The notes under the pieces were generated by a model. It worked only from the letters and a program-made list of their open reading frames with translations. It searched no databases and had not been told where the DNA came from. The translations under genes were made by a program, and so were the position numbers. A DNA stretch of 40,006 nucleotides from Bacteroidota bacterium (GTDB taxonomy: Bacteria; Bacteroidota; Bacteroidia; JACCXN01), in contig JACCXN010000058.1 of NCBI GenBank assembly GCA_013696965.1, positions 1 to 40,006 of the forward strand, written 5' to 3'. The stretch's first letter is position 1. Each line of letters starts with the position of its first letter. Of the stretch, positions 3,023 to 26,143 are shown piece by piece.

Positions 3023-3976
3023 ATGAAAAGAATTTTAATTCTCCTTCTAATAGTCACAAGTGTTATTTCCTGTAAAAAGGAAGAGGAATTAAAGAAAGAG
3101 GATGAATTAATACCAGAGGTAAAAGAGCCACATCTTATTTATGAAAGCACCTTTGGCATAAGTGGAACAGGGCTTGGAGAATTTAGATTGCAGCAGGGAA
3201 ATGTTTATCCGGGAACTTTTGCATTAAATAGCACTAACATGTTTATTAAAGATATACATAATCACCGTATTCAAAGGGTGAACCTGGATCTCACCCCTGT
3301 TGATTGGTTTGGTTACAATAACAATTGGGGATTTCACACCCAGGCGGTGGAAGGTGCAGATTCTATAACTCCCCGCAATATCTTTTTAAAAAATAATTAT
3401 CTATATGCAACCCAGTCAATGATTAATAGAATCCTGCTTAAAGTTAATCTTCAAACAGGACAGATAGAAAAACGATATAAGTTTAATTTATTTGTTAATA
3501 GTTTTGCGGTTGATGGCGATCATAACATTTATACCTATGAAACGGACAACCATATCTTATCAAAATATAATGACAATGGAGATTCTTTAATATCCTGGGG
3601 AGGATATGGCTCTGCCATCGGAAAGTTCAATACAGTTGATCCTCAAATAATTATAGATAACAGTAATAATATTTATGTATGTGATGCAGGAAATAAAAGA
3701 ATTCAAAAATTTACTGCTTCAGGCCAATACTTGAGCAGCTGGACTGTGAATGTAAATTCAACAATTTATGGGTCTTTTGATATTTATGAGGAAAATATTT
3801 TTATTGTGGAAGGGAATTTTCTTTCTAAATATGATCTTAATGGGATCCTTTTGAAAAAGTATGAAATTCCCTTCTCTTATTTTATTCAAAACCGATTTAA
3901 GGTTTATAATACAAATAAAGTAATTGTAGAATATAGCTACAGTAATGAGTTTAAAGTTTTTAAAATGCAAGACTAA
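3023..3976 (+). CDS. NHL-repeat (six-bladed propeller type) lipoprotein
   Basis: Residues 1-18 form a lipoprotein signal peptide with lipobox VISC; the cysteine is followed by a lysine/glutamate-rich linker (KKEEELKKEDE). The rest (~280 aa) carries NHL-like blades: STFGISGTGLGEF near the start, NHRIQRVNL, and IIIDNSNNIYVCDAGNKRIQKF later. Such propellers bind proteins or ligands outside the inner membrane; no enzymatic residues can be assigned. ATG 3023 is chosen over the TTG six bases earlier because MKRILIL is a better signal start. It stands alone, 139 bp before lepB. Confidence 0.7.
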   Translation: MKRILILLLIVTSVISCKKEEELKKEDELIPEVKEPHLIYESTFGISGTGLGEFRLQQGNVYPGTFALNSTNMFIKDIHNHRIQRVNLDLTPVDWFGYNNNWGFHTQAVEGADSITPRNIFLKNNYLYATQSMINRILLKVNLQTGQIEKRYKFNLFVNSFAVDGDHNIYTYETDNHILSKYNDNGDSLISWGGYGSAIGKFNTVDPQIIIDNSNNIYVCDAGNKRIQKFTASGQYLSSWTVNVNSTIYGSFDIYEENIFIVEGNFLSKYDLNGILLKKYEIPFSYFIQNRFKVYNTNKVIVEYSYSNEFKVFKMQD

Positions 3977-4052
3977 ACGGGGGCTTCAGGCATATTGAAA
4001 TCCTTTTTTTATTACAAAACAATTTGTTATTGATTAACGTTTAATGGGTAAG

Positions 4053-4092
4053 GAAAAACAGGAGTATCTTTAAAAAAGGTAACCTGTTTTTC
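4053..4092 (+). promoter_or_regulatory. Inverted repeat around candidate -7 box upstream of lepB
   Basis: GAAAAACAGG (4053-4062) pairs with CCTGTTTTTC (4083-4092). Between them is TATCTTTA (4065-4072), one base from the TAnnTTTG consensus. It may be a weak terminator of the upstream gene, a promoter for lepB, or both. Confidence 0.35.
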
Positions 4093-4115
4093 TGTTTTTA
4101 CCCTCTTTAACTGAA

Positions 4116-5195
4116 GTGAAATTGAAAAGAAAAGCGGCACGAAAAAAATCACTGTTCCGGGAATGGATTGAAGCCCTGTCTATAGCGCTGCTGGTGGTAA
4201 TTCTGGTAAGAGGGCTTGTAGCAGAGGTTTATGTAATTCCTACCCCTTCCATGGAAAAAACACTTTTACCCGGTGATTTTATATTGGTAAATAAAATTTC
4301 CTATGGTTCCCGTTTAGCACAAACCCCCTTGTCTCTTCCTTTTTTTCACCAGTACATCCCTTTTTTTGAAGGATTTAAATCCTACTTAGAATGGATAAGT
4401 CTGCCTTATTTTAGATTGCCTGGAACAAGTTCTATAAAACACAATGATGTAGTTGTTTTTAATTATCCTCTAGATGACAATTTTCCTGTTGATCATAAAA
4501 CGCATTATGTAAAGCGTTGTGTTGCCCTGCCAGGGGATACTTTAGTTATAAAAAACACACAGGTAATTGTTAATCATTTACCCTTGCCTGTTTTTCCTGA
4601 ATTGCAATACGACCGTATAATAAAAACATCTTCTGGCGACCAGGGGTTTATTCATGAATTTGAACCCTCAGAAGGCGGAAGGGCACATGGAAAAAATGTA
4701 TTGAACATACCTTTAACCGACCATTTGGCAAATGAAATTAGTAAAGACAAAAGAGTAGTGAACATAAAAAAAAGGATAGAAAAAGAAGGTTTTTTTTATG
4801 ACCATATATTTCCTTATGACTCTAATTTTCCCTGGAATACGGATAATTTTGGTCCTTTAATAATTCCTAAAGCGGGTACAACTGTAAATATTAACACAAA
4901 AAACATTGGAATTTACCAAAGAATTATAGAAAATTACGAATTGAATGAACTCGAAATAGTGGATCAGGCAATTAAAATAAATGGAGAGCTTGTGGATTCT
5001 TATACATTTAAAATGGATTATTATTTTATGCTTGGCGATAACCGGCATTATTCTTCTGATTCCAGATTTTGGGGCTTTGTTCCCGAGAACCATATTGTTG
5101 GAAAAGCAAGCAGCATTATTTTTTCTATAAAACCCAAACAGCCTATTTCAAATAAAATAAGAATGGATAGGTTTTTTAAATCTCTTGCATTGTGA
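4116..5195 (+). CDS. lepB: Signal peptidase I
   Basis: The enzyme removes signal peptides from exported proteins at the outer face of the inner membrane. A basic N-terminus is followed by one membrane helix (residues ~18-38, ALSIALLVVILVRGLVAEVY). Box B is IPTPSMEKTLLPGD with nucleophile S45. Box D is HYVKRCVALPGD with general base K133. Box E is MLGDNRHYSSDSRFWGFVP. The long segment between boxes D and E (about 170 residues) is typical of Bacteroidota enzymes, and the C-terminal part is short. The start is GTG at 4116; no in-frame ATG is available upstream of the membrane helix. The last four bases overlap the next gene, indicating one transcript. Confidence 0.92.
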   Translation: MKLKRKAARKKSLFREWIEALSIALLVVILVRGLVAEVYVIPTPSMEKTLLPGDFILVNKISYGSRLAQTPLSLPFFHQYIPFFEGFKSYLEWISLPYFRLPGTSSIKHNDVVVFNYPLDDNFPVDHKTHYVKRCVALPGDTLVIKNTQVIVNHLPLPVFPELQYDRIIKTSSGDQGFIHEFEPSEGGRAHGKNVLNIPLTDHLANEISKDKRVVNIKKRIEKEGFFYDHIFPYDSNFPWNTDNFGPLIIPKAGTTVNINTKNIGIYQRIIENYELNELEIVDQAIKINGELVDSYTFKMDYYFMLGDNRHYSSDSRFWGFVPENHIVGKASSIIFSIKPKQPISNKIRMDRFFKSLAL

Positions 5196-6178: not shown

Positions 6179-8662
6179 ATGATTTTTACTAAAAAATCAA
6201 TGAAAATTTTTATTCGCTTTTATTTTCTTACCCTTTTATTGTTCCTCTTGGGAACTGTTTATCAATTTAGTTATGGGAACCAGGAAAGAATGGTGGCCTC
6301 AAAATTGTCAAGAGTTGATAGTTTAATAATTAAGAAATTAATTGATGATAATATCAAACAAATCAAAAAAGATTCTCTTCAGGCAATTTTAAAAACCACC
6401 CTAAGCGATAGTATAAAAGTTCTGGCTTTGCATGAGTTATACCTCGCCAGTGATTCAATTGACTATGCCAAACAAGCCTTGAAATTTTCAAATAAAAAAA
6501 ACTACAAAAATGGAATATGCTTGTCATTGCTGGATTTGGGCCGGTATTATTATTTTGAAGGCCAACAGGATATTTCTCTTAGCTATTTGGTTAAATTAGT
6601 TAAAATTGCTGAAGAAACAAACAATAAGAAAATACTTGTAGGTGCGTATAAATATATAGGTTTTATATACCGGCCACATAATTCATTTATAGCCCTTGAC
6701 TATTATCTTAAAAGCTTGGCATTGGCTGAGGAAATTAAGGATGAAATTGCACAATCCTATGCCTTAAGTGCTATTGGTAATGTTCACGAAGGAGTTTTTG
6801 ATGGTACTTCTGAAAAAAACAAAACAGCATTGGAGTATTACCTCAAAAGCCTGGAAATACGTGAAAGAAAAGGATCTTATGATGAAATTGCTTCATCATT
6901 GACTGAAACATCGCGTGTTTATGACCTCTTAGGACTACATGATAAGGTAGTGGATATAAGATTAAGGGGCTTGGAATTTGCCAAAAAATCAGGAAGTACA
7001 GAGAATATTGTTTTCTTATACAATCTTTTGGGCCACGACTATAACTATCGGAAAAATGATTTTAACAAAGCTCTCGAATACCAACTAATGGCTTATGAAA
7101 TAGCCAGGAGCCAGAAAAACAACCTGGATATAATGTTTGATATCACAAAAGAAATTGCTTACTCCTATTATTCTTTAGGCAATTTTAAAAAATCAGCAGA
7201 TTTTTTTCAGCAGGGCATCGATATAAATAAATCAATACGGGAAAAAGAAATAAGTTACAATCATAACCTTTCGGGAATAAAATATGAACTGGAAAAAGAT
7301 ATTGAAAAACAGAAATTACTTTTAAAGGATTCAGAAATACTAAAAGAAAAGACCGAGGCTGAAAAACAAACGATGTTACGCAATGCCTTTTTTATTGGTT
7401 TTGCCCTTGTTTTTATTCTTGCACTAATTATTTTTAAAGGAAACAGACAAAAATTAAGATCTAACAGAGAACTGGATATTAGAAATAAAAAAATTGAGAT
7501 TGCCTATCAAACCCTTGCTTTAAGCGAAAACAAGTTAAAACAGATTACCTCAACTATCAATGATGTTTTCTATTTATACAACATTGTTGAGAAAAAATAT
7601 GAATATATTAGCCCAAACAGTGCTTCATTACTAGGAGCGGAGCCTCAATTTTTTTATGATGGAAACAGCATGAAACATTTTGTTGTGCAAGCTGATTTAC
7701 CAAAACTTATTCAAGCAAACGAGAAAGTAGATTCAGGCATTGCCTATGATATTGAATACCGGGTAGTGATTGACAATAAATTAATATGGATTGACGAGAA
7801 ATCCTATCCAATATTTGATGAACAAAACAATTTGATATGGAATTCAGGTGTTTGCCGTGATATTACCAAAAGAAAAAATGCGGAAGAAATCCTACATAAA
7901 AAAAACAAAGATATTACCGATAGCATTAATTATGCAAGCAAAATACAACAAGCTATTTTACCCGAGAGCATAGAATTTAAAAAGCATTTTCCAGATTCAT
8001 TTGTGCTATTTAAGCCCAAGGATATAGTTAGCGGTGATTTTTACTGGATAACAGAAAAAAACGATTTTGTGTTTTTTACAGCTGCCGACTGTACAGGTCA
8101 TGGTGTTCCGGGAGGTTTTATGAGTATGCTAGGAATGGCTCTTTTGAATGAAATAGTTAACCTGAAAGACATCTCAGAACCCTCAATTATTCTGGATAAA
8201 ATAAAAATCAGGATCATTTATGCCTTAAAGCAAAAAAGCGGCTTGAGTGAAACAAAGGATGGAATGGATATGGCCCTGTGTAGAATAGATAAACGCAAAA
8301 ATGAATTGGTTATAGCATCTGCAAACAATCCTGTATGGGTGATAAGGGAAAATGAATTCATAGAAATAAAAGGTGACAAGCAGCCCGTAGGTATTTCTGG
8401 AGGCCTTGATTTTAAATTCAACCAACAGACTGTGCAATTAAAAAAAGGAGACTGTATTTATGTGTTGACTGATGGATATGCAGATCAGTTTGGCGGTGCA
8501 AAAGGAAAGAAATTCAAATACAAGCCCCTAAAGGAATTATTGATTTCCATGCATAGTAACACCATGGAACAACAAAGAGAAATACTTTCTAAAACTATGC
8601 TTGAATGGAAAAAAGATATTGAACAGGTAGACGATATACTCCTTATGGGAATTAAAATATAA
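6179..8662 (+). CDS. TPR-PAS-SpoIIE (PP2C-type) serine phosphatase sensor
   Basis: The 827-aa protein has an N-terminal hydrophobic signal (FIRFYFLTLLLFLLGTVY), then about six tetratricopeptide repeats outside the membrane (residues ~100-350, e.g. ALDYYLKSLALAEEIKDE and ALEYYLKSLEIRERKG). A coiled linker and a membrane helix follow (~401-420, FFIGFALVFILALIIFKG). The cytoplasmic part has a PAS fold (~450-565, ending in ICRDITKRK-like VCRDITKRKNAEE) and a SpoIIE-type PP2C phosphatase domain with GDFYWI, AADCTGHGVPGGFMSMLG and LTDGYADQFGG. The family dephosphorylates anti-sigma-factor antagonists or other phosphoserine proteins. The input signal is unknown and no partner-switch genes are adjacent. 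A second in-frame ATG at 6200 is an alternative start. Confidence 0.85.
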   Translation: MIFTKKSMKIFIRFYFLTLLLFLLGTVYQFSYGNQERMVASKLSRVDSLIIKKLIDDNIKQIKKDSLQAILKTTLSDSIKVLALHELYLASDSIDYAKQALKFSNKKNYKNGICLSLLDLGRYYYFEGQQDISLSYLVKLVKIAEETNNKKILVGAYKYIGFIYRPHNSFIALDYYLKSLALAEEIKDEIAQSYALSAIGNVHEGVFDGTSEKNKTALEYYLKSLEIRERKGSYDEIASSLTETSRVYDLLGLHDKVVDIRLRGLEFAKKSGSTENIVFLYNLLGHDYNYRKNDFNKALEYQLMAYEIARSQKNNLDIMFDITKEIAYSYYSLGNFKKSADFFQQGIDINKSIREKEISYNHNLSGIKYELEKDIEKQKLLLKDSEILKEKTEAEKQTMLRNAFFIGFALVFILALIIFKGNRQKLRSNRELDIRNKKIEIAYQTLALSENKLKQITSTINDVFYLYNIVEKKYEYISPNSASLLGAEPQFFYDGNSMKHFVVQADLPKLIQANEKVDSGIAYDIEYRVVIDNKLIWIDEKSYPIFDEQNNLIWNSGVCRDITKRKNAEEILHKKNKDITDSINYASKIQQAILPESIEFKKHFPDSFVLFKPKDIVSGDFYWITEKNDFVFFTAADCTGHGVPGGFMSMLGMALLNEIVNLKDISEPSIILDKIKIRIIYALKQKSGLSETKDGMDMALCRIDKRKNELVIASANNPVWVIRENEFIEIKGDKQPVGISGGLDFKFNQQTVQLKKGDCIYVLTDGYADQFGGAKGKKFKYKPLKELLISMHSNTMEQQREILSKTMLEWKKDIEQVDDILLMGIKI

Positions 8663-10115: not shown

Positions 10116-11483
10116 TTAAAAAAGCACTGTTTTTCTGTTCTTTTTTTTTAACCATGATCTAATTAAATCATCTGAATCCGGGTAATAGGTAGCTTTTTTC
10201 ACCATTTCTTTGAATTCCTGCACCGAGGTAAATTGCATGCTAGGATCCATATATCCATAACCAGCGAATTTTCCTTTTTCAACAAGAATTACAGACTGCT
10301 CCTCTCCTTGCCTACCATGGTCAAATATGAGAAAGTTGGGAGATTCAAAAATGAAATTGCTTAAGATTTTTTTTGTCCTAAGGTTGTATTTCGCCTTATC
10401 TTCCTTACCTGCACATATGCCATTGCATTTTTTTATTTGATGATTAAAGCAAATGCTCCCTTCGTTTGTGAGGGCACAATATTGAAGGCACAGGGAATTT
10501 TCTTCTATCCAGTTCTCCAATCTTTCACGTGCAGCAATATAACTGGTAAATGAAATTAATGCGTTTTCAGCCAATTCACTTTCCACAATCCTGAAATTGA
10601 TTATGCCTTTATTGTCCTTAAACCATTCTATAGCATGCGTGAAAACATCTGCCTTTCTCAACCGGTTGTATTTAGGCTTGTGTAGCTTTATTTGTTCAGA
10701 TTCCAACAACAGTGCAATTAATTCACTGCCTGTTTCAACAAAATCAACATTGTACAAATCGTTCAACATTTTTTTTCCCTTGCTTTCATCGCTGTTGAAA
10801 TGGCTCAAGGCCCTACTGTACATATTAACGCTCTTGCCAATATAAATTATGGACCCATCTTTTGCTAAAAAAAAATATACTCCGCAGGATTCGGGCAATT
10901 TATCAAGAATGTATTTTTTAATGTTGTCAATACGCCTGGCCATTAGTTCAACTACGCCTTTGTTTTTATACTGGGCATGCATATTTTTGGCCTGCATTAG
11001 TCTGTCAAAAAGGATAGCTGTAGCCAATGCATCTCCATGCGCCCTATGCCTGGCTAAATTTTGAATGCCAAGGGAATCACATAAATTTCCAAGACTATAA
11101 GAAGCATGTCCAGGCAATAATTTCCTACTCAACCGAACAGTGCATAAGGTTTCCCTCCTGAATTTAAAGCCAAGGGAATTAAATTCATCTTTTAAAAAAT
11201 TGTAATCAAAACCAACATTATGGGCCACAAATATTTTTCCTTCGGTAAGTTCAAGAATTTTTTTTGCTACCTCACAAAACCTGGGTGCATCTTCAACCAT
11301 TTTATTTGTAATACCAGTAATATTGGTGAACATGGGAGAAATAAAACATTCAGGATTTAGGAGGGTGGTATAGGTTTCAACCACGCTTAAACCATCGTGA
11401 ATGAGAATACAAATTTCAGTTATTCTTCCTTTGCGGAATTCAAATTTTCCACCACATGTTTCTATATCGATGATTGCAAACAT
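10116..11483 (-). CDS. DnaQ-like 3'-5' exonuclease fused to GIY-YIG (Cho/UvrC N-terminal) nuclease
   Basis: The protein has two nuclease domains in 455 aa. Residues 1-165 are a DEDDh exonuclease like the Pol III epsilon subunit: D6-I-E8, H88-N..D93, and H146..D151. Residues ~195-275 are a GIY-YIG domain (GVY at 201, YIG at 214, R224, E261) followed by HKPKYN. A UvrC/Cho-style cysteine region (CFNHQIKKCNGICAG) lies around 345-370. UvrC/Cho cuts beside DNA lesions in nucleotide excision repair, so the fusion may incise and trim damaged strands. It starts 2 bp after the LexA-like repressor gene and is surely co-transcribed with it, implying damage induction. DnaQ-UvrC fusions are known elsewhere; lesion specificity here is not known. 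Confidence 0.88.
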   Translation of the reverse strand: MFAIIDIETCGGKFEFRKGRITEICILIHDGLSVVETYTTLLNPECFISPMFTNITGITNKMVEDAPRFCEVAKKILELTEGKIFVAHNVGFDYNFLKDEFNSLGFKFRRETLCTVRLSRKLLPGHASYSLGNLCDSLGIQNLARHRAHGDALATAILFDRLMQAKNMHAQYKNKGVVELMARRIDNIKKYILDKLPESCGVYFFLAKDGSIIYIGKSVNMYSRALSHFNSDESKGKKMLNDLYNVDFVETGSELIALLLESEQIKLHKPKYNRLRKADVFTHAIEWFKDNKGIINFRIVESELAENALISFTSYIAARERLENWIEENSLCLQYCALTNEGSICFNHQIKKCNGICAGKEDKAKYNLRTKKILSNFIFESPNFLIFDHGRQGEEQSVILVEKGKFAGYGYMDPSMQFTSVQEFKEMVKKATYYPDSDDLIRSWLKKKNRKTVLF

Positions 11484-11485
11484 TT

Positions 11486-12238
11486 TTATTTTCCCATTTC
11501 AACCCGGTAAGACTGCAAAAAGCGGATCATATTATCAATGTTTAAATCCTGTGCATTGAACTCACCTATATTTAAGCTGCATACAAAACTCCACACCTCT
11601 AATATTTCCTCGTTATTAATGACATAGGGCTTATAAACAGGGTTGTCTGAATGAAATTCAAAGCAAGGATTTTCCTTATTCCCGTATAATCTTTTGTAAA
11701 CCACACCTTCGTTTTTTGTAAGTACAATGTAGCTTTGGCCATCTTTAATTTCTTTCAAAGATTCCAGGTATTTTCCTACGGCAATTGAACCATCCTTTAA
11801 AGGTGGCATTGAATCGCCTTTTATTCCAAATGCTCGGTGTTTACCTATTATCTTAAATGGCAAATTCATTACAGGAAGCTCTTCTATAAACTGGGGATCG
11901 GAATAACCATTTAAATATCCGGCTGATGCCTTTACAGCAACTACTTCTATTAAATCATCTCCGTTTTTATCAACCATTATAGGAAAAAGAGTTCTGTTTT
12001 GGCCAATCTTGATTAATGATTCAGGATTTGTTTTGCTCAAATCGCTCTTCAAAAGGCAATCTGTAGAGATTTGAAAATAATCAGCAATCCTGATCAATAA
12101 TTCATAAGGAGGCTCTGATCTGCTTTCTTCATAAGCCCCAATGCGTGACCTATTTATCTCCAGGGACTCTGCCAGCTGATCCTGAGTAAGCTTTTTTAAT
12201 TCCCTTAGAACCTTAATATTTTTTGCTATTTTTGACAT
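11486..12238 (-). CDS. HTH (XRE/Cro-CI) + S24 LexA-like self-cleaving repressor A
   Basis: Residues 5-63 form an XRE helix-turn-helix (TQDQLAESLEINRSRIGAYE). Residues ~95-220 are a LexA/CI-type S24 domain with the serine in GDSMPP (S143), the lysine in GVVYKRL (K182) and a candidate cleavage site A106-G107 (KASAGY). Serine-lysine spacing (39) and site-serine spacing (37) resemble LexA. The full set of residues suggests RecA-stimulated autocleavage and derepression after DNA damage. The next gene, 2 bp downstream, is an exonuclease/GIY-YIG nuclease. Paired inverted repeats overlap the gene's own promoter and start codon, which suggests autorepression. It is a paralogue of the repressor at 21166. 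Confidence 0.88.
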   Translation of the reverse strand: MSKIAKNIKVLRELKKLTQDQLAESLEINRSRIGAYEESRSEPPYELLIRIADYFQISTDCLLKSDLSKTNPESLIKIGQNRTLFPIMVDKNGDDLIEVVAVKASAGYLNGYSDPQFIEELPVMNLPFKIIGKHRAFGIKGDSMPPLKDGSIAVGKYLESLKEIKDGQSYIVLTKNEGVVYKRLYGNKENPCFEFHSDNPVYKPYVINNEEILEVWSFVCSLNIGEFNAQDLNIDNMIRFLQSYRVEMGK

Positions 12239-12282
12239 GTTACTACATTTTTAAGCATAATATTACTACAAATATAAGTAAT
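12239..12282 (-). promoter_or_regulatory. Paired operator candidates over the promoter of repressor A
   Basis: On the minus strand operator A (12262-12282) is ATTACT-N9-AGTAAT, a perfect inverted repeat containing the -7 box TATATTTG (12269-12276). TTTG lies exactly 21 nt upstream of that box, a good -33 element. Operator B (12239-12259), ending TGTAGTAAC against the start codon, matches operator A at about 14 of 21 positions and is shifted by 23 bp, about two helical turns. A separate ACATGTC/GACATGT repeat (12284-12290 and 12234-12240) brackets the set. This is the layout expected for an autoregulated LexA-type gene. Confidence 0.65.
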
Positions 12283-12502
12283 TACATGTCGGAAAAACAA
12301 ATTTTTTAAGATTTGTTACATTTTTATCCCGGATTAGCTAACTGAAACAGCAATGTGCCTATAGCAAACATCGGACAGGAATGCATTTAAATTGATGTGA
12401 AAAAAATAAAAAGAACTGATTTATAAAAAAAATCAGGCAAAACAAGTGCACTACTTTTATAATTCTTAATTGGAATTAAGGGAGTTTGGAATAATAAAAA
12501 AC

Positions 12503-12534
12503 AAAAAAAGGCTGCTAAAAAGCAGCCTTTTTTT
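12503..12534 (-). terminator. Rho-independent terminator (usable in both directions)
   Basis: GGCTGCT (12510-12516) pairs with AGCAGCC (12521-12527) over an AAAA loop, extended by A7/T7 flanks. It lies 15 bp beyond the stop of the 1860-aa surface protein gene and separates it from repressor A. Together with the operators at 12239-12282 it accounts for the 310-bp intergenic stretch; the remainder (12291-12502) shows nothing recognisable. Confidence 0.9.
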
Positions 12535-12548
12535 GTTTTTTCAAGCTA

Positions 12549-15500
12549 TTACTTGTATAAATTCAATGCACCTTTTTCCTCAAATGCTTTTCCATCTGTT
12601 CCCTCTGCTTTGATAACATAAAAGTATGTACCCTGCGAGACACTTACTCCTGAGGATAGTTTACCATCCCAACCGTCATTTGGATTATCCCAGGCATAAA
12701 TTTTCTTTCCCCACCTGTTGAATATTTCAGCAGAGAATGTTAGAATATTGCCACCCTCTACCTTGAATACATCATTTTTCCCATCACCATTTGGAGAAAA
12801 AACATTTGGAACAATCATAAATGATTTACCTTCTACAAACACAGTAAAAATAGCGGTATCAGAACAAGAAGTGTTATTTCCAGTTGCAATTAAGGATACA
12901 ATATAAGTTCCTTGTTCAGAAAATACGGTAGCGGCATTAAATGTTTTGCTGGAATCTCCATTGCCAAATGTCCATATATATGAATTTCCTCCACTTGAAG
13001 TATTGGTAAAATTCACATTTAATGGAATCATTCCTGATAAGGGATCAGCGGTAAATGAAGCTTCTACAGTTTCTGCAAAAACAATCGTTGTGGAAGATGC
13101 ACTATTGCATCCATTTAGTGAAATTGATAAATTGTAAGAACCGAAATTAGTTGCAGTGGTATTGTTTATTACTGGATTTTGCTGGTTGGAAGTATATCCA
13201 TTAGGGCCAGTCCATGAATAAGCAGCCCCGATAACTTCTTGCGCTTGTAAAACAATAGCATTGCCTGTACAAAGGGGGCCATTGTTAGAAGTCGATGGAG
13301 TATTAGGAGCTTGATTTACAATTACATTAACCGAGGAAGAAGCACTCTGGCAGCCATTCACATTAATTGAAGCTTGGTAGTTTCCGGCCTGAAGTGCGCT
13401 GGAATTTGCAATTACAGGATTTTGATTAGAGGAAGAAAAACCTGCAGGTCCGGTCCATGTATAACTACCTGTTGAATTACCAGTTAAATTAATATTAGAA
13501 CCTGAACATACAGTAATATCCTGGCCAAGATCAGGTGGCAATGGATCATTTATTGTAACGTTTATTTGTGTTTGCCCACTCTCACAACCATTTTCTGTTT
13601 GAGTTACATAAAATGTAGTTGTAGTAGTAATGGCGGGAGTATAAGTAGCTGTTGTACTTACAATATTTCCATTGCTGTCATACCAGGTAATACTTCCTGT
13701 GGTTCCAGTTACTGATAAAGGATTTAGGGACTGTCCTGCACAATAGGAGGGATTTGGATTTGGGCCAACGGGGGCTGGAGCAACATATATTTCCACCTGT
13801 TCGGTATGCTGGGAGGAACATGAGCCGGAGGTTGTATAGGTAACAGAATGAATTCCTACCGTGCTTGCTGTAAAATCAATTTCACCAGTTGTTGCATTTA
13901 TTGACAGCCCTCCTAATGGGTTACTAAAATTTCCAGTGGTACCAGGATCATTTAACACAGGAGTTTCAGAGCCCGATTTACAATAAACAGATTGTGCATA
14001 TGTAAATGTTGCGTCATCTGAACTTACAACAGTAACCTGTACACTGGCCATAGAAGAACATCCCAGATCATCTGAAACTTCTACTGTTAAATTATATACT
14101 CCAAGGTTTGATGAATTAAATACAGGATTATTTATTGATGTAGAAGAAATATCTGCAACATCTCCAGTCCAATTATAGCTGTTAAAAGTACCACTACCAC
14201 CATTTGCTGTTGCAGTTAAAGTGAGATTCGTATTCATACATATTTGGGCAGAACTAGGTATTATTGAAACCGATGGCAATGGTTCAAATGAAATGTTAAT
14301 ATCCGCTACATTTGTACAAGCGTTTAGCGTAGCTGTAACAGTATATAATCCCTCATTTAAAGTAGTTGTATTATTAATGGTATTACTTTGGTTGTTAGAG
14401 GCAAATGATGCAGGACCGGTCCATACAAAAGTTGCTCCACTAGAGGAAGAAGCAGAGATAATAAATTCAGATCCTATGCAAACGGGGGCATTTGTTGAAA
14501 TAACGGGCAAATCTGGATTTATATTTACTACAACATTTTCAATTCCCTGTGTACTGGTACAACCATTGATGTCGGTAATTGTTAAAAAATAATCACCAGC
14601 TTCATTTAAAGAAGCAGGCTGAACAACGGGATTCTGCTCTGTTGAAGAAAAACCATTAGGACCTGTCCAGTTATAGGTAACATCTGAAACCAAATCAGTA
14701 GATAAATTAATGCTTTCCCCAATACAAACAGGAGAGTTGCTTGAAGCTATTGGTGTTCCGGGTAATGGATTAACATCAACATTCAGCGAATCAGAATTTG
14801 AACAACCATTTTCTGTAACAACAAGTACATACATTCCATTGTTTGCCAATGTTGCAGATGAAATTACTGGATTTTGATCCGTAGAATTAAAAGATACCGG
14901 CCCTGTCCAATTGTAAGTAAGGCCAGATGCTGAAGTAGTTAAATTAATGGAGTTACCAACACACACATTAAGGTCGGAACCTATCAAAACCGCAGGAGCA
15001 GGATTAATAATTACTGTTTGATTATGCACAGAAGAAGGACATCCTATAACGGTTATAGTGTTGGTAACCGTATATGTTCCAGGTGTACTAGCTAATAAAT
15101 CTATTTCTCCGGTAGCAATATCAGTAAACACCATTTGTTGGCCTGGAATTAGGGAAGATCCAGAAAATATACCTGCAGAACCTGTAGTAAAAGTTGGCAA
15201 AGGATTTACACCTCCAGCACAAAATGGACCAGAGTAGCTAAATTCAGCACTTGGAGCATTTGTAATGGTTATGGATTCGGTGCTCGAAGATGGACAAGGG
15301 CCTGAAACTGTATAAGTAATATCATAAGTATTATCATTGCTGGTTGAAATATTAACTTCTCCGGTAGAAGAATTAATGCTTAACCCGGCAGGAGAAGCAG
15401 AAAAAACACCTCCAGGAGTTCCTGATATAACTGGAGTTGGAGTTGCACTGGTTCCAGAACAATATACCTGCTGGGAATAATTAAAAGTAGCATCTGTTCC

Positions 15501-18131
15501 AGGATTTACCTGTACATTTTCTACATCCTGCAAACTTGTGCATCCATTATTTGTAATTGTAAGAAAGTAATCTCCCGCATTATTTAATGAAGCAGGTTGA
15601 ACAATTGGATTCTGATCTGAAGAAGCAAATCCATTTGGCCCAGTCCAGTTATAAGTAGCTCCGTTTACTGTAGCAGTACTAAAATTAATGCTTCCACCCA
15701 CACATACAGGAGAATTACTTGTTGCATTGGGTAATCCAGGTAAGGGAGTTACTGTTACAGAAAGTGAATCTGAACTGGAACAACCATTTTGAGTAACTAC
15801 AAGTACATAAGTTCCATTGTTTGCCAAGCTTGCATTTGCAACGGATGGATTTTGAACAGATGAATTATAAGAAGCAGGTCCAGTCCAACTGTATGTTGGC
15901 CCTGCAGTAGTAGTTAAATTAAAAGTACCGCCTTCGCAAACAGTTTGATCTGCTCCTATAAGTACAGAAGGTGAAGGATTGATTGTAATTGTTTGATTAT
16001 ACACAGAAGAAGCACATCCTGGTACAGTTATAGTATTTGTAACAGTAAAAGTCCCCGGGGTACTTGCTGTTAAATTTATTTCTCCCGTGTTGGTATTTAC
16101 AAATGATATTTGTTCACCAGGATTGATGGAAGTTCCAGAAAATATACCTGCAGAACCTGAAGTAAAAGTTGGAAAAGGATTTATACCATTGGCACAAAAA
16201 GGAGTAGCATAACTAAATTCAGCACTTGGAGCATTTGTAATAGTTATTGATTGTGTACTTGAGGATGGACATGCCCCACCCAGGCTATAAGTAATAGTAT
16301 AGGTATTGTTTGCACTTGCTGCAATATTAACTGCTCCGGTAGTTGCATTAATGCTTAAACCAGCAGGAGAAGAAGAGAAAGTTCCTCCGCTTGTAGTGGT
16401 TGTTGCTGTTGCGGTTCCTGCACCTGAACAATAAACTTGTTGTGGATAAGAAAAAGTAGAATTTGCGCTTGGATTGACGGTAATTGATCTATTTTGAGTT
16501 GCTGTATTACCACAAGCATCTGTTACAATTACAGAATAAGTTGTATTTGCTGTTGGCGAAACTGTAATTGTAGAAGTGGTTGCTCCCCCCGGAGTCCAGG
16601 AATAGGTATAAGGACCTACACCAAACTCTCCAAAACTAGCAAGTGTTGTAGATTGTCCTGCACAAATAGTTGTGCCTGCACTACTGGTTATACTTGAGTT
16701 ATGCTCAATTGTTTTGCCCTGAATTGTCATTGTCCATGGGCTTGCAGAACCTATACAATTATTATTACAACCAGTGGAGCCATAACATTTTCTATAAAAC
16801 TGCAAGGTGAACGGAACATTCTGTGCCACACAGGAAGGGGGAGGTAAACAAGAGCCAAGGTCATTAAAAACAGAAATATTAAGTCCATTGCAACTTCCCC
16901 CAGAGTTTTGATTACAATACCAAAAAAAACCTGCTTGTCCCGGACTCACACAGCTACCGGTGGTCAGTTTTATTGCCCCGTCACTCCTCCAACAGATTCC
17001 AGATGCCGAGTAGTTAAAAGTCCATAATACATCAGTAAAGGTTGCCTGGGGAGGTGTTGCTACAGTTAAATTATAATTACATGAATTTGTAAAATTACAA
17101 GAAGCATTATACATGGATCCTGTAATTGAGGCTTGTGCTAAACTATTAGAGCTTGTTACCAATGGATCCACAATTAACTCTCCTTTTGAAATATTTTGCG
17201 CTATCCAGCTTACCGGAATAATAATTCCCAACCTGTTTACATCAATAATATACTCTGCCGTGGTTGCCTCCTTTTCAAAATTCCTTGGATAAATTACAGC
17301 CTCATTTATTTTCAATAAGGGTTCATTTCCCTTTTCAAAGGCTACCGACCCTACCCCCTTGTTTAATGTTGCGTTGTCCTCAAATCTTAAAGAAGCAATT
17401 CCTTCTGAAGAAAATTCATCTACAAATACTATTCTTTCAAACTGATTGTAATTATTGAATTTAATAATCAGATTCGTTTTAACAGATCCTCTGGATGCTA
17501 TCATTTCTGCATCTATTCCCGGAAACAGGTCAATTACTTTTATTCCATTGTCTCCGGCTGTATAATTGGTCCAGTTTGCTGTTGCAATTTCCGTTTCTAT
17601 ATTTGCCGAAATCCCATAAAGCTTCCAGTTGTTAAATTCTACATTTCCTTGCGGAGTTTTTATAAGTGATGCTTTCTTTATAAAATCAAATCCGACAGGA
17701 TCAATCTGCCCCGTTGACATAAGTAACTCATGGGAAACAGGCTTTAATCGGGTATCTAGCGTAACTAAAAAATCATTCCTTAACATGTGCATGGCACCTA
17801 AGGATTTTTGAATGTAAAATTTAGTATAATCCTCTGCATCCACAAAATATCTTTCATCAATTTTTCTTTTACTCAATACTTCTACACAATTATTACAGGG
17901 AGCATTATAGGGCAATTTTCCGAATTCAGGATGTCTTTGAATGCTAAAATCGGGATTGTTTTTTTTCCAATGTTCCTGGTTTTTAATGCTTTTATCCTCA
18001 TTACTGAAATTTGTCAAATTTGACTCTTGGCTTTCCATTGCACTGTTCATCCTATTATCCTGAGCAAAAACAAAGGATAATAATAGTGAGGAGATGAAGA
18101 TGGAAACAAATAAAAAAGTAGCTTTTTTCAT
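12549..18131 (-). CDS. Giant gliding-associated (T9SS type B) repeat adhesin-like protein
   Basis: The 1860-residue secreted protein starts with a signal peptide (MKKATFLFVSIFISSLLLSFVFAQ). Residues ~25-330 form an N-terminal region found in other large gliding-associated proteins (NAPCNNC, SLGAMHMLRNDF, LFPGIDAEM). About a dozen Ig/PKD-like modules follow, many with the signature YNWTGPNGF...QNPVV and SPVCxG. A clear PKD domain lies near the end (FTNTSSGGNSYIWTFGNGDS). The last ~90 residues are the gliding motility-associated C-terminal domain (VPNVFSPNGDGKNDVF, FNRWGKKIY, GTYFYVIKAEG), a type B T9SS sorting signal. It should be exported to the cell surface or released; adhesion is the likely role. 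Modules are internally duplicated (see the repeat entry). Confidence 0.88.
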   Translation of the reverse strand: MKKATFLFVSIFISSLLLSFVFAQDNRMNSAMESQESNLTNFSNEDKSIKNQEHWKKNNPDFSIQRHPEFGKLPYNAPCNNCVEVLSKRKIDERYFVDAEDYTKFYIQKSLGAMHMLRNDFLVTLDTRLKPVSHELLMSTGQIDPVGFDFIKKASLIKTPQGNVEFNNWKLYGISANIETEIATANWTNYTAGDNGIKVIDLFPGIDAEMIASRGSVKTNLIIKFNNYNQFERIVFVDEFSSEGIASLRFEDNATLNKGVGSVAFEKGNEPLLKINEAVIYPRNFEKEATTAEYIIDVNRLGIIIPVSWIAQNISKGELIVDPLVTSSNSLAQASITGSMYNASCNFTNSCNYNLTVATPPQATFTDVLWTFNYSASGICWRSDGAIKLTTGSCVSPGQAGFFWYCNQNSGGSCNGLNISVFNDLGSCLPPPSCVAQNVPFTLQFYRKCYGSTGCNNNCIGSASPWTMTIQGKTIEHNSSITSSAGTTICAGQSTTLASFGEFGVGPYTYSWTPGGATTSTITVSPTANTTYSVIVTDACGNTATQNRSITVNPSANSTFSYPQQVYCSGAGTATATTTTSGGTFSSSPAGLSINATTGAVNIAASANNTYTITYSLGGACPSSSTQSITITNAPSAEFSYATPFCANGINPFPTFTSGSAGIFSGTSINPGEQISFVNTNTGEINLTASTPGTFTVTNTITVPGCASSVYNQTITINPSPSVLIGADQTVCEGGTFNLTTTAGPTYSWTGPASYNSSVQNPSVANASLANNGTYVLVVTQNGCSSSDSLSVTVTPLPGLPNATSNSPVCVGGSINFSTATVNGATYNWTGPNGFASSDQNPIVQPASLNNAGDYFLTITNNGCTSLQDVENVQVNPGTDATFNYSQQVYCSGTSATPTPVISGTPGGVFSASPAGLSINSSTGEVNISTSNDNTYDITYTVSGPCPSSSTESITITNAPSAEFSYSGPFCAGGVNPLPTFTTGSAGIFSGSSLIPGQQMVFTDIATGEIDLLASTPGTYTVTNTITVIGCPSSVHNQTVIINPAPAVLIGSDLNVCVGNSINLTTSASGLTYNWTGPVSFNSTDQNPVISSATLANNGMYVLVVTENGCSNSDSLNVDVNPLPGTPIASSNSPVCIGESINLSTDLVSDVTYNWTGPNGFSSTEQNPVVQPASLNEAGDYFLTITDINGCTSTQGIENVVVNINPDLPVISTNAPVCIGSEFIISASSSSGATFVWTGPASFASNNQSNTINNTTTLNEGLYTVTATLNACTNVADINISFEPLPSVSIIPSSAQICMNTNLTLTATANGGSGTFNSYNWTGDVADISSTSINNPVFNSSNLGVYNLTVEVSDDLGCSSMASVQVTVVSSDDATFTYAQSVYCKSGSETPVLNDPGTTGNFSNPLGGLSINATTGEIDFTASTVGIHSVTYTTSGSCSSQHTEQVEIYVAPAPVGPNPNPSYCAGQSLNPLSVTGTTGSITWYDSNGNIVSTTATYTPAITTTTTFYVTQTENGCESGQTQINVTINDPLPPDLGQDITVCSGSNINLTGNSTGSYTWTGPAGFSSSNQNPVIANSSALQAGNYQASINVNGCQSASSSVNVIVNQAPNTPSTSNNGPLCTGNAIVLQAQEVIGAAYSWTGPNGYTSNQQNPVINNTTATNFGSYNLSISLNGCNSASSTTIVFAETVEASFTADPLSGMIPLNVNFTNTSSGGNSYIWTFGNGDSSKTFNAATVFSEQGTYIVSLIATGNNTSCSDTAIFTVFVEGKSFMIVPNVFSPNGDGKNDVFKVEGGNILTFSAEIFNRWGKKIYAWDNPNDGWDGKLSSGVSVSQGTYFYVIKAEGTDGKAFEEKGALNLYK
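14520..16475 (-). repeat. Internal tandem duplication of ~969 bp (323 aa) in the giant surface gene
   Basis: Two consecutive blocks of four modules share the same order of landmarks: QQVYCSG, SPAGLSIN, ITNAPSAEFSY, GSAGIFSG, GTYTVTNTITV, NGTYVLVV, NATYNWTGPNGF-like and the closing ENVxVN. Matching codons are 969 bp apart (for example ggatt at 16471 and 15502). The copies have diverged, so the duplication is old relative to strain-level change. Confidence 0.8.
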
Positions 18132-21165: not shown

Positions 21166-21972
21166 TTATTTTCTCCCCTTGCTTATTTCTGCTTTTATAT
21201 CCAGTAGCATCGTTCCTAAATGCTCCAAAGTAATTCCGCTTTCAGGAATCTGGCTGCTTAGGTAACTCACGAATTTCCATACCTCATTTATTTCACTGGC
21301 TTTTATAGAATAATCTTTGAACAGGGGATTCAGTGAATGCATCAAAAGCGTTCCCTCTTGCTTTAAATTATTGCTTACTTCTTTAAAAACAATGCCTTCA
21401 TCTTTGGTCAAAACAATGCATGCCTGGCCATTTTTAATGGTATTCCAGTTTTCAACAAATTCGGAAATAACATAAGATTTATCGGGTATGGGCAACATGG
21501 AATCGCCCTCTATTTGAAACATCCTAAACTTCCTGTTTGGGGATAAAACCGGAAGGTGAAAGCATTGCAAGCTTCCAATAAATTCAGGATTGCTGTATCC
21601 CTGGGTATATCCTGCCTTGGCTTTAAGGCTAACTATTTCGATGTTTTCCCTGTTTTTAGAATCCACAGTTGTTGCCAATACCCGGATTTTTGTCCCCATA
21701 ATATATTCATCATTCCCGGCCTCTAAATTACGCAGCTGCAATTCGGTTAATCGCTTTAAATTCACCCAAAGCAGGGAATCCACACTTACTTTAAAGTAGG
21801 CTGTAAACTTTGCCAGATCTTCTATTTTGGGGTTAACATTTACTCCGTTTTCAAATGCATTGATCTTTGCGCGGGTAACTTTTAAGCTTGCTGCTACATC
21901 GCCTTGCGTTTTTTTCTTTCTATCTCTCAACAACTTAAGGTTGCTTGCTAAAAAAATTGTTTGTTTTTCCAT
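21166..21972 (-). CDS. HTH (XRE/Cro-CI) + S24 LexA-like self-cleaving repressor B
   Basis: The 268-aa paralogue of repressor A has an N-terminal helix-turn-helix (TQGDVAASLKVTRAKINAFENG) and an S24 domain. The candidate cleavage site is A120-G121 (KAKAGYTQGYSNPEF), the serine S158 (GDSMLPIPD) and the lysine K197 (GIVFKEV). Spacing between serine and lysine is 39, the same as in repressor A. It is divergent from dinB-dnaE with 77 bp between start codons, and that gap carries two inverted repeats. The likely role is to hold both its own gene and the mutagenic polymerase operon off until RecA-dependent cleavage. That logic is inferred from family behaviour and gene order. Confidence 0.88.
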   Translation of the reverse strand: MEKQTIFLASNLKLLRDRKKKTQGDVAASLKVTRAKINAFENGVNVNPKIEDLAKFTAYFKVSVDSLLWVNLKRLTELQLRNLEAGNDEYIMGTKIRVLATTVDSKNRENIEIVSLKAKAGYTQGYSNPEFIGSLQCFHLPVLSPNRKFRMFQIEGDSMLPIPDKSYVISEFVENWNTIKNGQACIVLTKDEGIVFKEVSNNLKQEGTLLMHSLNPLFKDYSIKASEINEVWKFVSYLSSQIPESGITLEHLGTMLLDIKAEISKGRK

Positions 21973-21980
21973 TTAAAAAC

Positions 21981-22018
21981 GTTATTATAGGTAACACAAC
22001 ATTGTTATTTTAAATAAC
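21981..22018. promoter_or_regulatory. Two operator candidates in the repressor B / dinB divergent promoter
   Basis: GTTATTATAGGTAAC (21981-21995) and GTTATTTTAAATAAC (22004-22018) both read GTTA-N7-TAAC and are 23 bp apart. A minus-strand -7 box TACATTTG for the repressor gene directly abuts the second site. On the plus strand TTG at 22002-22004, 19 nt, then TATAAAAA (22024-22031) could serve dinB with the second site in the spacer. Protein bound at these sites could therefore block both directions. Confidence 0.6.
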
Positions 22019-22049
22019 AAATGTATAAAAAATTTCAATTCAAAAAAAA

Positions 22050-23204
22050 ATGGAAAGAACAGTTGTTCACATGGATTTAGATTCCTTTTTCGTATCGGTG
22101 GAACGCCTTATGGACAGCAGCCTGTTTGGAAAGCCTGTTATTATTGGCGGTACTTCCGACCGGGGAGTGGTGGCATCATGCAGTTACGAGGCCAGGAAAT
22201 TCGGTGTTCACAGTGCCATGCCGGCAAAAATGGCCAGGCAACTTTGCCCTCATGCCATCTTTGTTCGCGGAGACATGGATACCTATTCCAAATATTCCAA
22301 ATTGGTTACCCAGATTATTGAAAACGAAGCCCCTTTAGTGGAAAAGGCTTCCATTGACGAACATTACCTGGACATTACCGGTATGGACCGCTATATAAAA
22401 AACAGCATGCAATGGACACATGAGCTGCGGCAAAAAATAATAAAGGAAACAGGACTTCCTATTTCTTACGGTTTATCTGTAAACAAAACAGTTTCTAAAA
22501 TAGCTACGGGAGAGGCTAAGCCCAATGGTGAAAAAAACATTGATCCGGGCATTGAAAAACTTTTTTTAGCTCCCTTATCCATTAAAAAAATTCCGGGAAT
22601 TGGTGATAAAACCTATCTCATGTTACGCAACATGGGAATAGAAAAAGTAGAAACAATTCAGCAAATGCCCCTTGAAATTATTCAAAAAGTGCTTGGTGAA
22701 AATGGCGGAATTATATGGAGAAAGGCAAACGGAGTGGACAATAGCCCGGTTGCACCCTATTCGGAACAAAAAAGCATGAGCTCCGAAAGAACTTTTGACA
22801 AGGACACAACGGATATTGAACAGCTAAAAAAAACACTCATTACCATGATTGAAGGTTTAGCCTTCGATTTAAGGAAATCAAAAAAAGTAACAGGGTGTGT
22901 TACCCTAAAACTCAGGTATTCCGATTTTCAAACACATACCTTTCAAAGCAGGATCGCTTACACAGCTTCCGATCATGTATTACTGGATAAGACTTTGGAA
23001 TTATTCAAAAAAAACTATACACGAAGAGTGCTAATCCGTTTGATTGGTGTAAAGTTCAGCCACCTGGTTTCGGGTCAAACCCAAATCAGCTTGTTTGACG
23101 ATACCGAAGAAATGATAAACCTCTACCAGTCCCTGGACAGGATTCGCCTAAGGTTTGGAGTAAAGGCAATAATGCGCAGTGTTGGATTAGACCTTAAAAA
23201 ATGA
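22050..23204 (+). CDS. dinB: Y-family DNA polymerase (DNA polymerase IV)
   Basis: The 384-aa translesion polymerase copies damaged templates at low fidelity. Catalytic carboxylates are D9 (HMDLDSFF) and D103-E104 (ASIDEHYLDI). GGVV-type fingers (SDRGVVASCSYEARKFGV) and helix-hairpin-helix segments (IKKIPGIGDKTY) follow, then the little-finger domain. QISLF at 345-349 is a good sliding-clamp-binding motif. The gene overlaps the following polymerase gene by four bases (ATGA), so both are made together, as in imuB-dnaE2 mutasomes. It differs from ImuB in retaining the catalytic residues. Control by the divergent S24 repressor is likely. Confidence 0.92.
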   Translation: MERTVVHMDLDSFFVSVERLMDSSLFGKPVIIGGTSDRGVVASCSYEARKFGVHSAMPAKMARQLCPHAIFVRGDMDTYSKYSKLVTQIIENEAPLVEKASIDEHYLDITGMDRYIKNSMQWTHELRQKIIKETGLPISYGLSVNKTVSKIATGEAKPNGEKNIDPGIEKLFLAPLSIKKIPGIGDKTYLMLRNMGIEKVETIQQMPLEIIQKVLGENGGIIWRKANGVDNSPVAPYSEQKSMSSERTFDKDTTDIEQLKKTLITMIEGLAFDLRKSKKVTGCVTLKLRYSDFQTHTFQSRIAYTASDHVLLDKTLELFKKNYTRRVLIRLIGVKFSHLVSGQTQISLFDDTEEMINLYQSLDRIRLRFGVKAIMRSVGLDLKK

Positions 23205-26143
23205 TACTCAATGCACATTCCAATTACAGTTTACGCTACGGGGTTATTCCTTTGGAAGAGCTTGTGCAATGGGCCATTTATAATGGTTATGAAGCAGTGG
23301 CCATTACCGACATTAACAATTCATCGGGCATACTTGATTTTGTTAAAATTTGCATTGAAAAAGGAATAAAACCCCTTGTGGGAATGGAGTTCAGAAATAA
23401 AGATGAATTGTTGTTTATAGCCCTTGCCAGGAACAACGCTGGCTTTAAGGAAATAAACGAATTAATGACCAACTGCAATTTAGCTCAAATTCAACTCCCT
23501 TCTAAACCTGATTTTTTAAATTGTTATGTCATCTACCCCTACGGCAAAATAAAACCGGAATCACTCAAAGAGCATGAATACCTTGGTGTACGGCCGGGCC
23601 AGCTGAATCAACTTGTTCATGAAAAGCCTGCCCAGCAAACAAAGTATGTTATACAACAACCCTATACATACAAGGATTACAAGGGATATGAAATTCATAA
23701 AAAATTAAGGGCAATCCATAACAACATACTGCTCTCGCAAGTTAAACCAGGGCAATTGGCAGGAACCGATGAGTTTATAATACCTGAAAAACAACTGCTG
23801 AAAAAATATGCTGATTACCCGCATTTAATTGAAAACACAAATAGAATTATCCGTGATTGCAATTTTAGTTTTGATTTTAAAAGCGGGAAAAACAAAAAAA
23901 CGTATACTGGAAATGCTTATGATGACAAGTTATTACTGGAAAAACTCGCATATGATGGTTTGAAATTCCGGTATGGAACACAAAACAAAACAGCCATTGA
24001 ACGGGTAAATAAAGAATTGGAAATTATTCAAAACCTGGGTTTTTGCGCCTACTTTCTAATAACGGCCGATATTATCCGCTATTCCATGCAAAGGGGGTAT
24101 TACCATGTTGGCAGGGGGAGTGGCGCAAACAGCGTAGTGGCATATTGTTTAAGAATTACTGATGTCTGCCCCATTGAACTGGATTTGTATTTTGAGCGTT
24201 TTTTAAACCCAAAAAGAAAATCGCCTCCTGATTTTGACATTGATTACAGCTGGCAGGAACGGGATGATGTAATTGATTACATATTTAAGCGCTATGGGAG
24301 AAAACACACTGCCTTATTGGGTGCCATGTCCACTTTTAAAGATCGTTCCATTATCCGGGAAATGGGGAAGGTATACGGATTGCCCAAAGAAGACATTGAT
24401 CGACTGATAAAATATCCAGCTTCGCCCTTAAACCAAAATGATATTTGCACTGATGTTCTCTCACATTATTCTGCAATAGAAGATTTCCCCAATATGCGTA
24501 CCATTCATTCCTGCGGCATTCTTATTTCTGAAGAACCAATTACCTGTTATACTGCCCTGGATCTGCCCCCCAAGGGTTTTCAAACTACACAATTCGATAT
24601 GCACCAGGCAGAAGATATAGGCTTTGAAAAACTGGATATTCTAAGCCAGCGGGGCATTGGCCATATTAAGGATGCTGCCGAAATTATTTTTAAAAACAGG
24701 GGGATAAAAGTAGATATACATGATATTCAAAAGTTCAAAACAGACGAAAAAGTAAGGCTGCAATTAAAATCAGGAGATACCATTGGCTGCTTTTACATTG
24801 AAAGCCCTGCCATGAGGGGATTATTAAAAAAACTTAAATGCGAGGATTATTTAACCCTGGTGGCTGCAAGTTCCATCATTCGCCCCGGAGTTGCCAAAAG
24901 CGGAATGATGAAAGCTTATATTCAGCGTTTTCACGATCCTGCTGCAATTGAATATTTACATCCCGTAATGAAAGATCAGCTCAGGGAAACCTTTGGTGTG
25001 ATGGTGTTCCAGGAAGACGTTCTAAAAGTAGGCCACCACTTTGGAGGGCTGGATTTAGCAGATGCCGATGTTTTGCGCAGGATGATGAGCGGGAAATCCA
25101 GGAATAAAAAACACCTGGAAGAGATTACAGAAAAGTATTTCGTGCATTGCAAAGCAATGGGATATTCCCCTCAATTAAGCAAAGAAGTTTGGAGACAGAT
25201 AGAATCCTTTGCCGGGTATAGTTTTAGCAAAGCACACTCTGCCAGCTATGCTGTGGAAAGCTATCAAAGCCTATATTTAAAAACATATTTCCCTTTAGAG
25301 TTTATGGTTGCGGTAATAAACAATTTCGGGGGCTTTTACCCAACAAAAATTTACATCAATGAAACAAAAAAAGCAGGCGGAACGCTTCACCTTCCTTGCG
25401 TAAACCGCAGTAGCTATTTAACTTCCCTTAAGGGCACTGATGTTTTCCTGGGATTTATTCACATTAAATCTATGGAACAAACAAGTGCCAATACCATTGA
25501 AAGGGAAAGGAAAAACAAGGGAAAGTATAAAGATTTGGAAGATTTTATTTTACGAACAAACATTGGAATTGAATCCTTGCGCACGCTCATACGCATGAAT
25601 GCCCTGCGTTTTACCGGGCAGAATAAAAGACAATTGCTCTGGGAGGCATACATGTTGTTTGATAAAGAAAAAACCAAACAGGCTGCCTCTTCCATTGCTA
25701 TGTTCGAAGTTGCTGTTCCCCACTGGGAAATCCCTGAATTAACGGTTAACAAAATAAGCGATGCCTATGATGAACTGGAATTGCTTGAATTCCCTGTCAC
25801 GCTCTCTGCCTTTGATTTGTTAAAGTCTGATTTCAGGGGCGAATGTAAGGCAAAGGAACTTTTGGAACACATTGGTAAAACAGTAAGAATGGTTGGCAAT
25901 TACGTTACCTACAAAGGCGTAAGAACCATCCGGGGAGATTTAATGGCCTTCGGAACTTTCCTGGACGAGCAGGGCAACTTCTTTGACACCACACACTTTC
26001 CACCGAGTTTGAAAAATTACCCCTTTACAGGCAGTGGCGTTTACTTGATTTTGGGAAGAGTAGTTCAGGAGTTTGGCTTTCCAAGCATAGAGGTTGAGAA
26101 AATGGCAAGGATGGGATATGTGAAGAATCCTATTTCTGAATAA
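23201..26143 (+). CDS. Second DNA polymerase III alpha subunit, short error-prone (DnaE2-like) type
   Basis: This C-family polymerase of 980 aa is shorter than main replicative DnaE (about 1150 or more). The N-terminal PHP domain lacks metal ligands: the usual HxH reads NAHSNYSL and the next motif reads AITDINNSSG, so proofreading there is unlikely. Palm aspartates are in PPDFDIDYSW, preceded by GRGSGANSVVAYCL, and the third acidic position is in GFEKLDILSQRGI. Later come SGKSRNKKH, FNKAHSASYA-like FSKAHSASYAVESYQ, tandem helix-hairpin-helix and an OB-like end. It is translationally coupled to dinB. Damage-induced DnaE2-type enzymes carry out translesion synthesis with Y-family partners; that role here rests on gene order. 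Confidence 0.88.
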   Translation: MILNAHSNYSLRYGVIPLEELVQWAIYNGYEAVAITDINNSSGILDFVKICIEKGIKPLVGMEFRNKDELLFIALARNNAGFKEINELMTNCNLAQIQLPSKPDFLNCYVIYPYGKIKPESLKEHEYLGVRPGQLNQLVHEKPAQQTKYVIQQPYTYKDYKGYEIHKKLRAIHNNILLSQVKPGQLAGTDEFIIPEKQLLKKYADYPHLIENTNRIIRDCNFSFDFKSGKNKKTYTGNAYDDKLLLEKLAYDGLKFRYGTQNKTAIERVNKELEIIQNLGFCAYFLITADIIRYSMQRGYYHVGRGSGANSVVAYCLRITDVCPIELDLYFERFLNPKRKSPPDFDIDYSWQERDDVIDYIFKRYGRKHTALLGAMSTFKDRSIIREMGKVYGLPKEDIDRLIKYPASPLNQNDICTDVLSHYSAIEDFPNMRTIHSCGILISEEPITCYTALDLPPKGFQTTQFDMHQAEDIGFEKLDILSQRGIGHIKDAAEIIFKNRGIKVDIHDIQKFKTDEKVRLQLKSGDTIGCFYIESPAMRGLLKKLKCEDYLTLVAASSIIRPGVAKSGMMKAYIQRFHDPAAIEYLHPVMKDQLRETFGVMVFQEDVLKVGHHFGGLDLADADVLRRMMSGKSRNKKHLEEITEKYFVHCKAMGYSPQLSKEVWRQIESFAGYSFSKAHSASYAVESYQSLYLKTYFPLEFMVAVINNFGGFYPTKIYINETKKAGGTLHLPCVNRSSYLTSLKGTDVFLGFIHIKSMEQTSANTIERERKNKGKYKDLEDFILRTNIGIESLRTLIRMNALRFTGQNKRQLLWEAYMLFDKEKTKQAASSIAMFEVAVPHWEIPELTVNKISDAYDELELLEFPVTLSAFDLLKSDFRGECKAKELLEHIGKTVRMVGNYVTYKGVRTIRGDLMAFGTFLDEQGNFFDTTHFPPSLKNYPFTGSGVYLILGRVVQEFGFPSIEVEKMARMGYVKNPISE

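Follow-up and report, generated by a model that had tools for sequence, protein, structure and literature searches.

What are two copies of an inverted repeat doing directly in front of a repressor gene, the first over a promoter element and the second against the start codon? The question is raised by a locus in the window, i.e., the whole stretch of 40,006 nt of Bacteroidota contig JACCXN010000058.1 that we analysed, and it concerns the minus-strand gene that we call REP1 (Table 1). There, TTTG is followed after 21 nt by TATATTTG (12301-12269), and these elements were called by the B. fragilis -7/-33 consensus cited in PMC2483708. As claimed in an earlier note on this DNA, the -7 box (12276-12269) lies wholly within the repeat ATTACT-N9-AGTAAT (12262-12282), and a weaker second copy, TATGCTTAAAAATGTAGTAAC (12239-12259), starts 23 bp further on, agrees with the first in 14 of its 21 positions and directly adjoins the ATG (12238-12236).

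The exact repeat occurs once in the window and in none of 100 shuffles. Perfect inverted repeats with 6-bp arms 3-15 bp apart were present in 54% of shuffled 150-bp promoters of the same composition, a 14/21 copy of site 1 arose in 15% of shuffles anywhere and in 0.075% at the fixed position, and the -33/-7 pattern was seen three times against 1.8 expected per window. The repeats and the promoter pattern of the window alone are weak evidence, and it is because they are conserved across orthologues that the twin repeats go beyond chance.

Table 1. Features of the window at REP1, its paralogue REP2 and their promoters.
Feature	Position	Strand	Basis or remark
DEDD exonuclease + GIY-YIG (UvrC/Cho-like) nuclease	10116..11483	-	Pfam, NCBIfam
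REP1, non-canonical LexA-type repressor, HTH_3 + Peptidase_S24	11486..12238	-	Pfam, alignment, predicted fold
Candidate operator 2, 17-bp unit TGCTTAAAAATGTAGTA, core CTTA-AAAAT-GTAG	12241..12257	-	position and spacing as in orthologues
TAATATTA, degenerate; place of the orthologue -7 box (last 2 bases of site 1 + 6-nt spacer)	12258..12265	-	
Candidate operator 1, 17-bp unit TACTTATATTTGTAGTA, core CTTA-TATTT-GTAG	12264..12280	-	aligned with orthologue site TRCTAA-N5-TTAGYA
-7 box TATATTTG, inside operator 1	12269..12276	-	perfect TAnnTTTG, TTTG 21 nt upstream
-33 element TTTG	12298..12301	-	pattern search
REP2, HTH + S24, 38% identical to REP1	21166..21972	-	
REP2 candidate operator 2 TGTTACCTATAATAACG, 23 bp from REP2 operator 1	21980..21996	-	
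REP2 candidate operator 1 TGTTATTTAAAATAACA	22003..22019	-	
Y-family DNA polymerase IV (DinB), divergent from REP2	22050..23204	+	
DNA polymerase III alpha-type protein (DnaE), overlaps dinB end	23201..26143	+	

The repressor and its relatives

REP1 is 250 aa long, with Pfam matches to HTH_3 (PF01381, E 1.2e-11) and Peptidase_S24 (PF00717, E 1.1e-9), and an alignment of 16 sequences, the paralogue REP2 included, shows no variation at its Ala106-Gly107, Ser143 and Lys182. In the predicted model, whose mean pLDDT of 67.5 is moderate (81-92 for residues 1-50), the N-terminal domain has five helices within residues 3-64 and no wing. The best fold matches of this domain include P22 c2 (TM 0.86 by target length) and ImmR, and the C-terminal domain resembles LexA; the model also has a terminal helix (234-249) of low local confidence, and an extra C-terminal helix is predicted for the family. 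A canonical LexA was considered and rejected, the N-terminal domain being all-helical and HTH_3/P22 c2-like rather than winged-helix. REP1 fits as a member of the Bacteroidetes non-canonical LexA family. According to Sanchez-Osuna et al. (2021, PMC8565304), S24 repressors with a CI-type HTH run the SOS response of Bacteroidetes; one non-canonical LexA group binds CTAA-N5-TTAG, its own promoters are among those bound, and the targets are induced by mitomycin C, the evidence being EMSA, mutagenesis and RT-qPCR. REP1 shares with this group the phylum, the CI-type HTH joined to S24, the Ala-Gly/Ser/Lys residues and 4-5-4 palindromes in its own promoter (PMC8565304).

Conservation of the pair and position of the promoter

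Searches within the genus, family and order gave only two other genomes and few close relatives, and our set of orthologues comprises 27 Bacteroidota loci encoding relatives of 47-75% identity. The repeats, which the earlier note had proposed to look for upstream of orthologous repressors, are kept: with the upstream regions side by side, two 17-bp palindromes 23 bp apart are found in 24 of the 27 promoters. They mostly read TRCTAA-N5-TTAGYA, which holds the published core CTAA-N5-TTAG, and site 2 ends at the ATG or at most 3 bp from it. The standard pair was not clearly visible in the remaining promoters (L043-L045). In L045, from a Sphingobacteriales genome, TGTCC/GGACA-like elements stand upstream of 5995 instead of CTAA-N5-TTAG, the recognition helix of the repressor is divergent, and the adjoining dnaE (1840-4775) reads as two open frames.

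Both cores in the window read CTTA-N5-GTAG and align with the CTAA-N5-TTAG of the orthologues, the exact form of which is absent from the REP1 promoter; operator 2 is centred 23 bp from operator 1 and lies 2 bp from the ATG. When the window was aligned with 23 orthologues, information per column reached 1.56 bits in site 1, 1.17 in the spacer and 1.49 in site 2, whereas it was 0.69 over the 20 bp that adjoin site 1 upstream and 0.35 beyond these. This comparison redraws the repeat as first described: the conserved unit is not the 21-bp ATTACT-N9-AGTAAT but a 17-bp palindrome with a 4-5-4 core, the outer bases of which vary, and the distance, given as two helical turns, corresponds to 2.2 turns of B-DNA. 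The second copy is an imperfect palindrome in the window, but among the orthologues site 2 is conserved as well as site 1. Moreover, the half-sites covary, as CTAA/TTAG in most orthologues is replaced by CTAT/ATAG in both sites of L033.

In 20 of the 23 aligned orthologues, a TAnn[T/A]TTG box is made up of the 6-nt spacer and the two site 1 bases that precede it, and the -7 box thus lies between the two sites. The corresponding place in the window reads TAATATTA and holds no such box; the only good -7 box in the window is TATATTTG, 11 bp upstream of that place. Judged from these alignments, the sites have apparently kept their distance from the ATG, whereas the promoter of the window has shifted by about one helical turn. 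The picture of a -7 box buried in an operator therefore holds here, but as a peculiarity of the window.

Neighbouring genes, the paralogue REP2 and the extent of the regulon

The exonuclease/GIY-YIG nuclease gene starts 2 bp downstream of REP1 and is its probable operon partner. Among the 27 orthologous loci, some of which end early at contig ends, a relative of the exonuclease part follows downstream in 13 (in three at full length), and a divergent Y-family polymerase gene lies upstream in 16, often followed by dnaE. No phage genes were recognised beside REP1. The same-strand upstream neighbour (12549-18131) encodes a secreted repeat protein of 1860 aa with, by eye, a gliding-motility/type IX-secretion-like C-terminus, and a G+C-rich hairpin with a T run follows this gene near 12505-12540. 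Elsewhere in the window, 6179-8662 encodes a protein of 827 aa in which a repeat-like N-terminus and a membrane segment were recognised by eye, along with a C-terminus of SpoIIE-like phosphatase type.

REP2 has its own pair of sites in the interval between REP2 and dinB (21973-22049), with the cores TTAT-N5-ATAA and TTAC-N5-ATAA, compared with CTTA-N5-GTAG at REP1. The same 23-bp geometry is present at the REP2 relatives L100, L101 and L128. In addition, a TACATTTG box (22018-22025, minus strand) overlaps the edge of REP2 operator 1. A search of the window's genome with the REP2-type pattern returned, without mismatch, only the pair in the window plus a single site within an unrelated reading frame; with one mismatch, there were 155 matches, below the 398 of the control. 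Going by these core sequences, REP1 and REP2 appear to use separate operators.

The tandem pattern TRCT-N9-AGYA-N6-TRCT-N9-AGYA, with at most one mismatch allowed, has a single match in the 3.86-Mb genome, at the REP1 promoter and with no mismatch; each of 14 orthologue genomes gave the pair at its repressor gene in the same search, and the few other matches there were unlike it. The 21-bp frame is useless for a regulon search since ATTACT-N9-AGTAAT with two mismatches gave 711 matches genome-wide against 665 in the control. Matches to TRCTWA-N5-KTAGYA in the window's genome were at background level (8 and 12 against 11), and those outside the REP1 promoter lay nearly all within genes. CTAA-N5-TTAG sites do stand upstream of other genes in orthologue genomes: a splB-like gene (named by eye), the peroxiredoxin gene bcp followed by recA in one genome (G006: L085, L088, L130), and bcp in another (G014: L097). 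No site was seen by eye in the bcp-recA upstream region of the window's genome (L129). A wider regulon in that genome is not supported, and the regulon may be small, because the bcp-recA region shows no site and the motif of the window occurs elsewhere at background level. As a separate observation, a perfect CTAA-N5-TTAG lies 58 bp upstream of an apparent DNA cytosine methyltransferase gene at L079 (G006:C3:50647), and the modification gene there may be under SOS-type control.

Probable autoregulation, its alternatives and the 23-bp spacing

The twin repeats are very probably tandem operators through which a phage-derived, LexA-like S24 repressor regulates its own gene. Autorepression of REP1, which had been proposed from the window, is strongly supported by the sequence comparison: the repeats are conserved at orthologues, REP1 is of the HTH-S24 repressor type, and members of its family are damage-inducible and bind such palindromes in the promoters of their own genes (PMC8565304). 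We infer from the sites that REP1 binds both of them. A point against this is that its specificity would have to have shifted from the tested CTAA-N5-TTAG to CTTA-N5-GTAG, since substitutions in either dyad abolished binding in the published EMSA (PMC8565304). One REP1 dimer on operator 1 would cover the -7 box and a second on operator 2 the stretch from the transcription start to the first codon, so that both together would turn the repressor-nuclease operon nearly off. Self-cleavage of REP1 at Ala106-Gly107, carried out by Ser143/Lys182, would be set off by RecA filaments once DNA is damaged. Once the sites are empty, the operon would be induced, along with fresh repressor that resets it. 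A cooperative contact between the dimers across the 6-bp spacer is plausible by analogy, the geometry (17 + 6 bp) being compatible with it and phage CI, the adjacent dimers of which interact pairwise, providing the precedent (PMC5880393).

The most serious alternative accepts the operators as real but has the dimers bind independently, the 23 bp being set by the promoter, with spacer and site 1 end serving as the -7 box, and not by protein contact. In its favour are the 20 of 23 REP1 orthologues in which the spacer supplies nnTTTG of that box. However, the window keeps 23 bp without a -7 box in the spacer, and REP2-type promoters keep it with spacers such as CTATTA, AATGTT and ATGTTG, the TACATTTG box there being at the site 1 edge; we consider this reading rather unlikely, though worth weighing. 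Control of REP1 from outside, by REP2 or an unrelated HTH protein bound to the repeats, is improbable. Two paralogues with the same operator geometry 9 kb apart could engage in cross-talk, but their cores differ, each tandem pair is present in the window's genome only at its own gene, and in many genomes the pair remains at the repressor gene even though the neighbours are different. We also rejected, as very improbable, the reading of operator 2 as a leader RNA hairpin that limits translation at the ATG, with its likeness to operator 1 being secondary. Several orthologues do have a perfectly palindromic site 2 directly against the start codon, in what is probably the 5' leader. However, site 1 is conserved at least equally and, being located at the likely transcription start or upstream of it, would hardly act as RNA; the half-sites of both sites covary, and site 2 of the window is imperfect. 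That the repeats arose by chance in an AT-rich promoter has next to no probability in spite of the shuffling frequencies given above, as the orthologues keep sequence, spacing and distance to the ATG, which is decisive.

The proposed tandem autoregulation by REP1 can be placed beside several known systems. The neighbours and targets of the CTAA-N5-TTAG group include error-prone polymerases, recA, splB and the GIY-YIG exonuclease, the last being a predicted target, which recalls the genes around REP1 and its orthologues (PMC8565304). The group differs from REP1 in the core and in its recA-upstream site, not seen in the window's genome; promoters with at least two sites are mentioned for it, but the main-text statements on spacing concern the dyad, and no fixed 23-bp tandem pair is described in them (PMC8565304). 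Paralogues with diverged palindromes are reported there as well, and the Elizabethkingia anophelis paralogue, with TTAC-AAATT-GTAA opposite an error-prone polymerase, resembles REP2 in the divergent polymerase gene (dinB at REP2) and in similar half-sites (TTAT, TTAC); REP2 differs by its two sites 23 bp apart and its dinB-dnaE pair (PMC8565304). With the lambda and P22 repressors, REP1 shares 17-bp sites in tandem, a P22 c2-like all-helical N-terminus and an S24-type C-terminus, whereas it has two sites per region rather than three and host repair genes as neighbours. FddR of Francisella is likewise a domesticated phage-like S24 repressor in a DNA-damage response but its site is GTG-N11-CAC, and it groups with lambdoid repressors in a separate clade (PMC13148647).

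We examined the spacing in 137 autoregulator promoters by scoring all pairs of 17-bp sites at spacings of 17-45 bp for the agreement of their four half-sites. The best spacing was 23 bp in 57 of the 137, compared with 6.1% in shuffles, and still in 33 of 109 after the close REP1 orthologues and the window had been left out; the binomial p values (7e-33 and 7e-15, respectively) are overstated, the promoters being phylogenetically non-independent, but the effect is large. The site sequences in this set are diverse (TACTAA, TGTTAT, TGATTA, TGACAA, TGCGTA and others). With overall similarity removed, a partial Mantel test linked operator and recognition helix weakly (partial r 0.17, p 0.004), and this link became marginal once the REP1 cluster was left out. 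A minority of CTAA-type promoters seem to have abutting sites with centres 17 or 18 bp apart (L190, L197, L201, L202, L203, L205, L206).

This kind of repressor was already known, and the new element is the recurrence of the 23-bp geometry over diverged specificities. The observation made on raw sequence now connects with the SOS system that was recently described for Bacteroidota. We give even chances to the view that Bacteroidota SOS-type repressors keep the geometry of two 17-bp sites 23 bp apart while the bases diverge, the constraint being a dimer contact inherited from a phage ancestor. If this is true, paralogues could switch specificity yet retain the switch. The spacing rule helps to find operators that have diverged beyond the reach of motif searches, and it allows a direct test of whether a cellular SOS repressor is cooperative in the manner of phage repressors.
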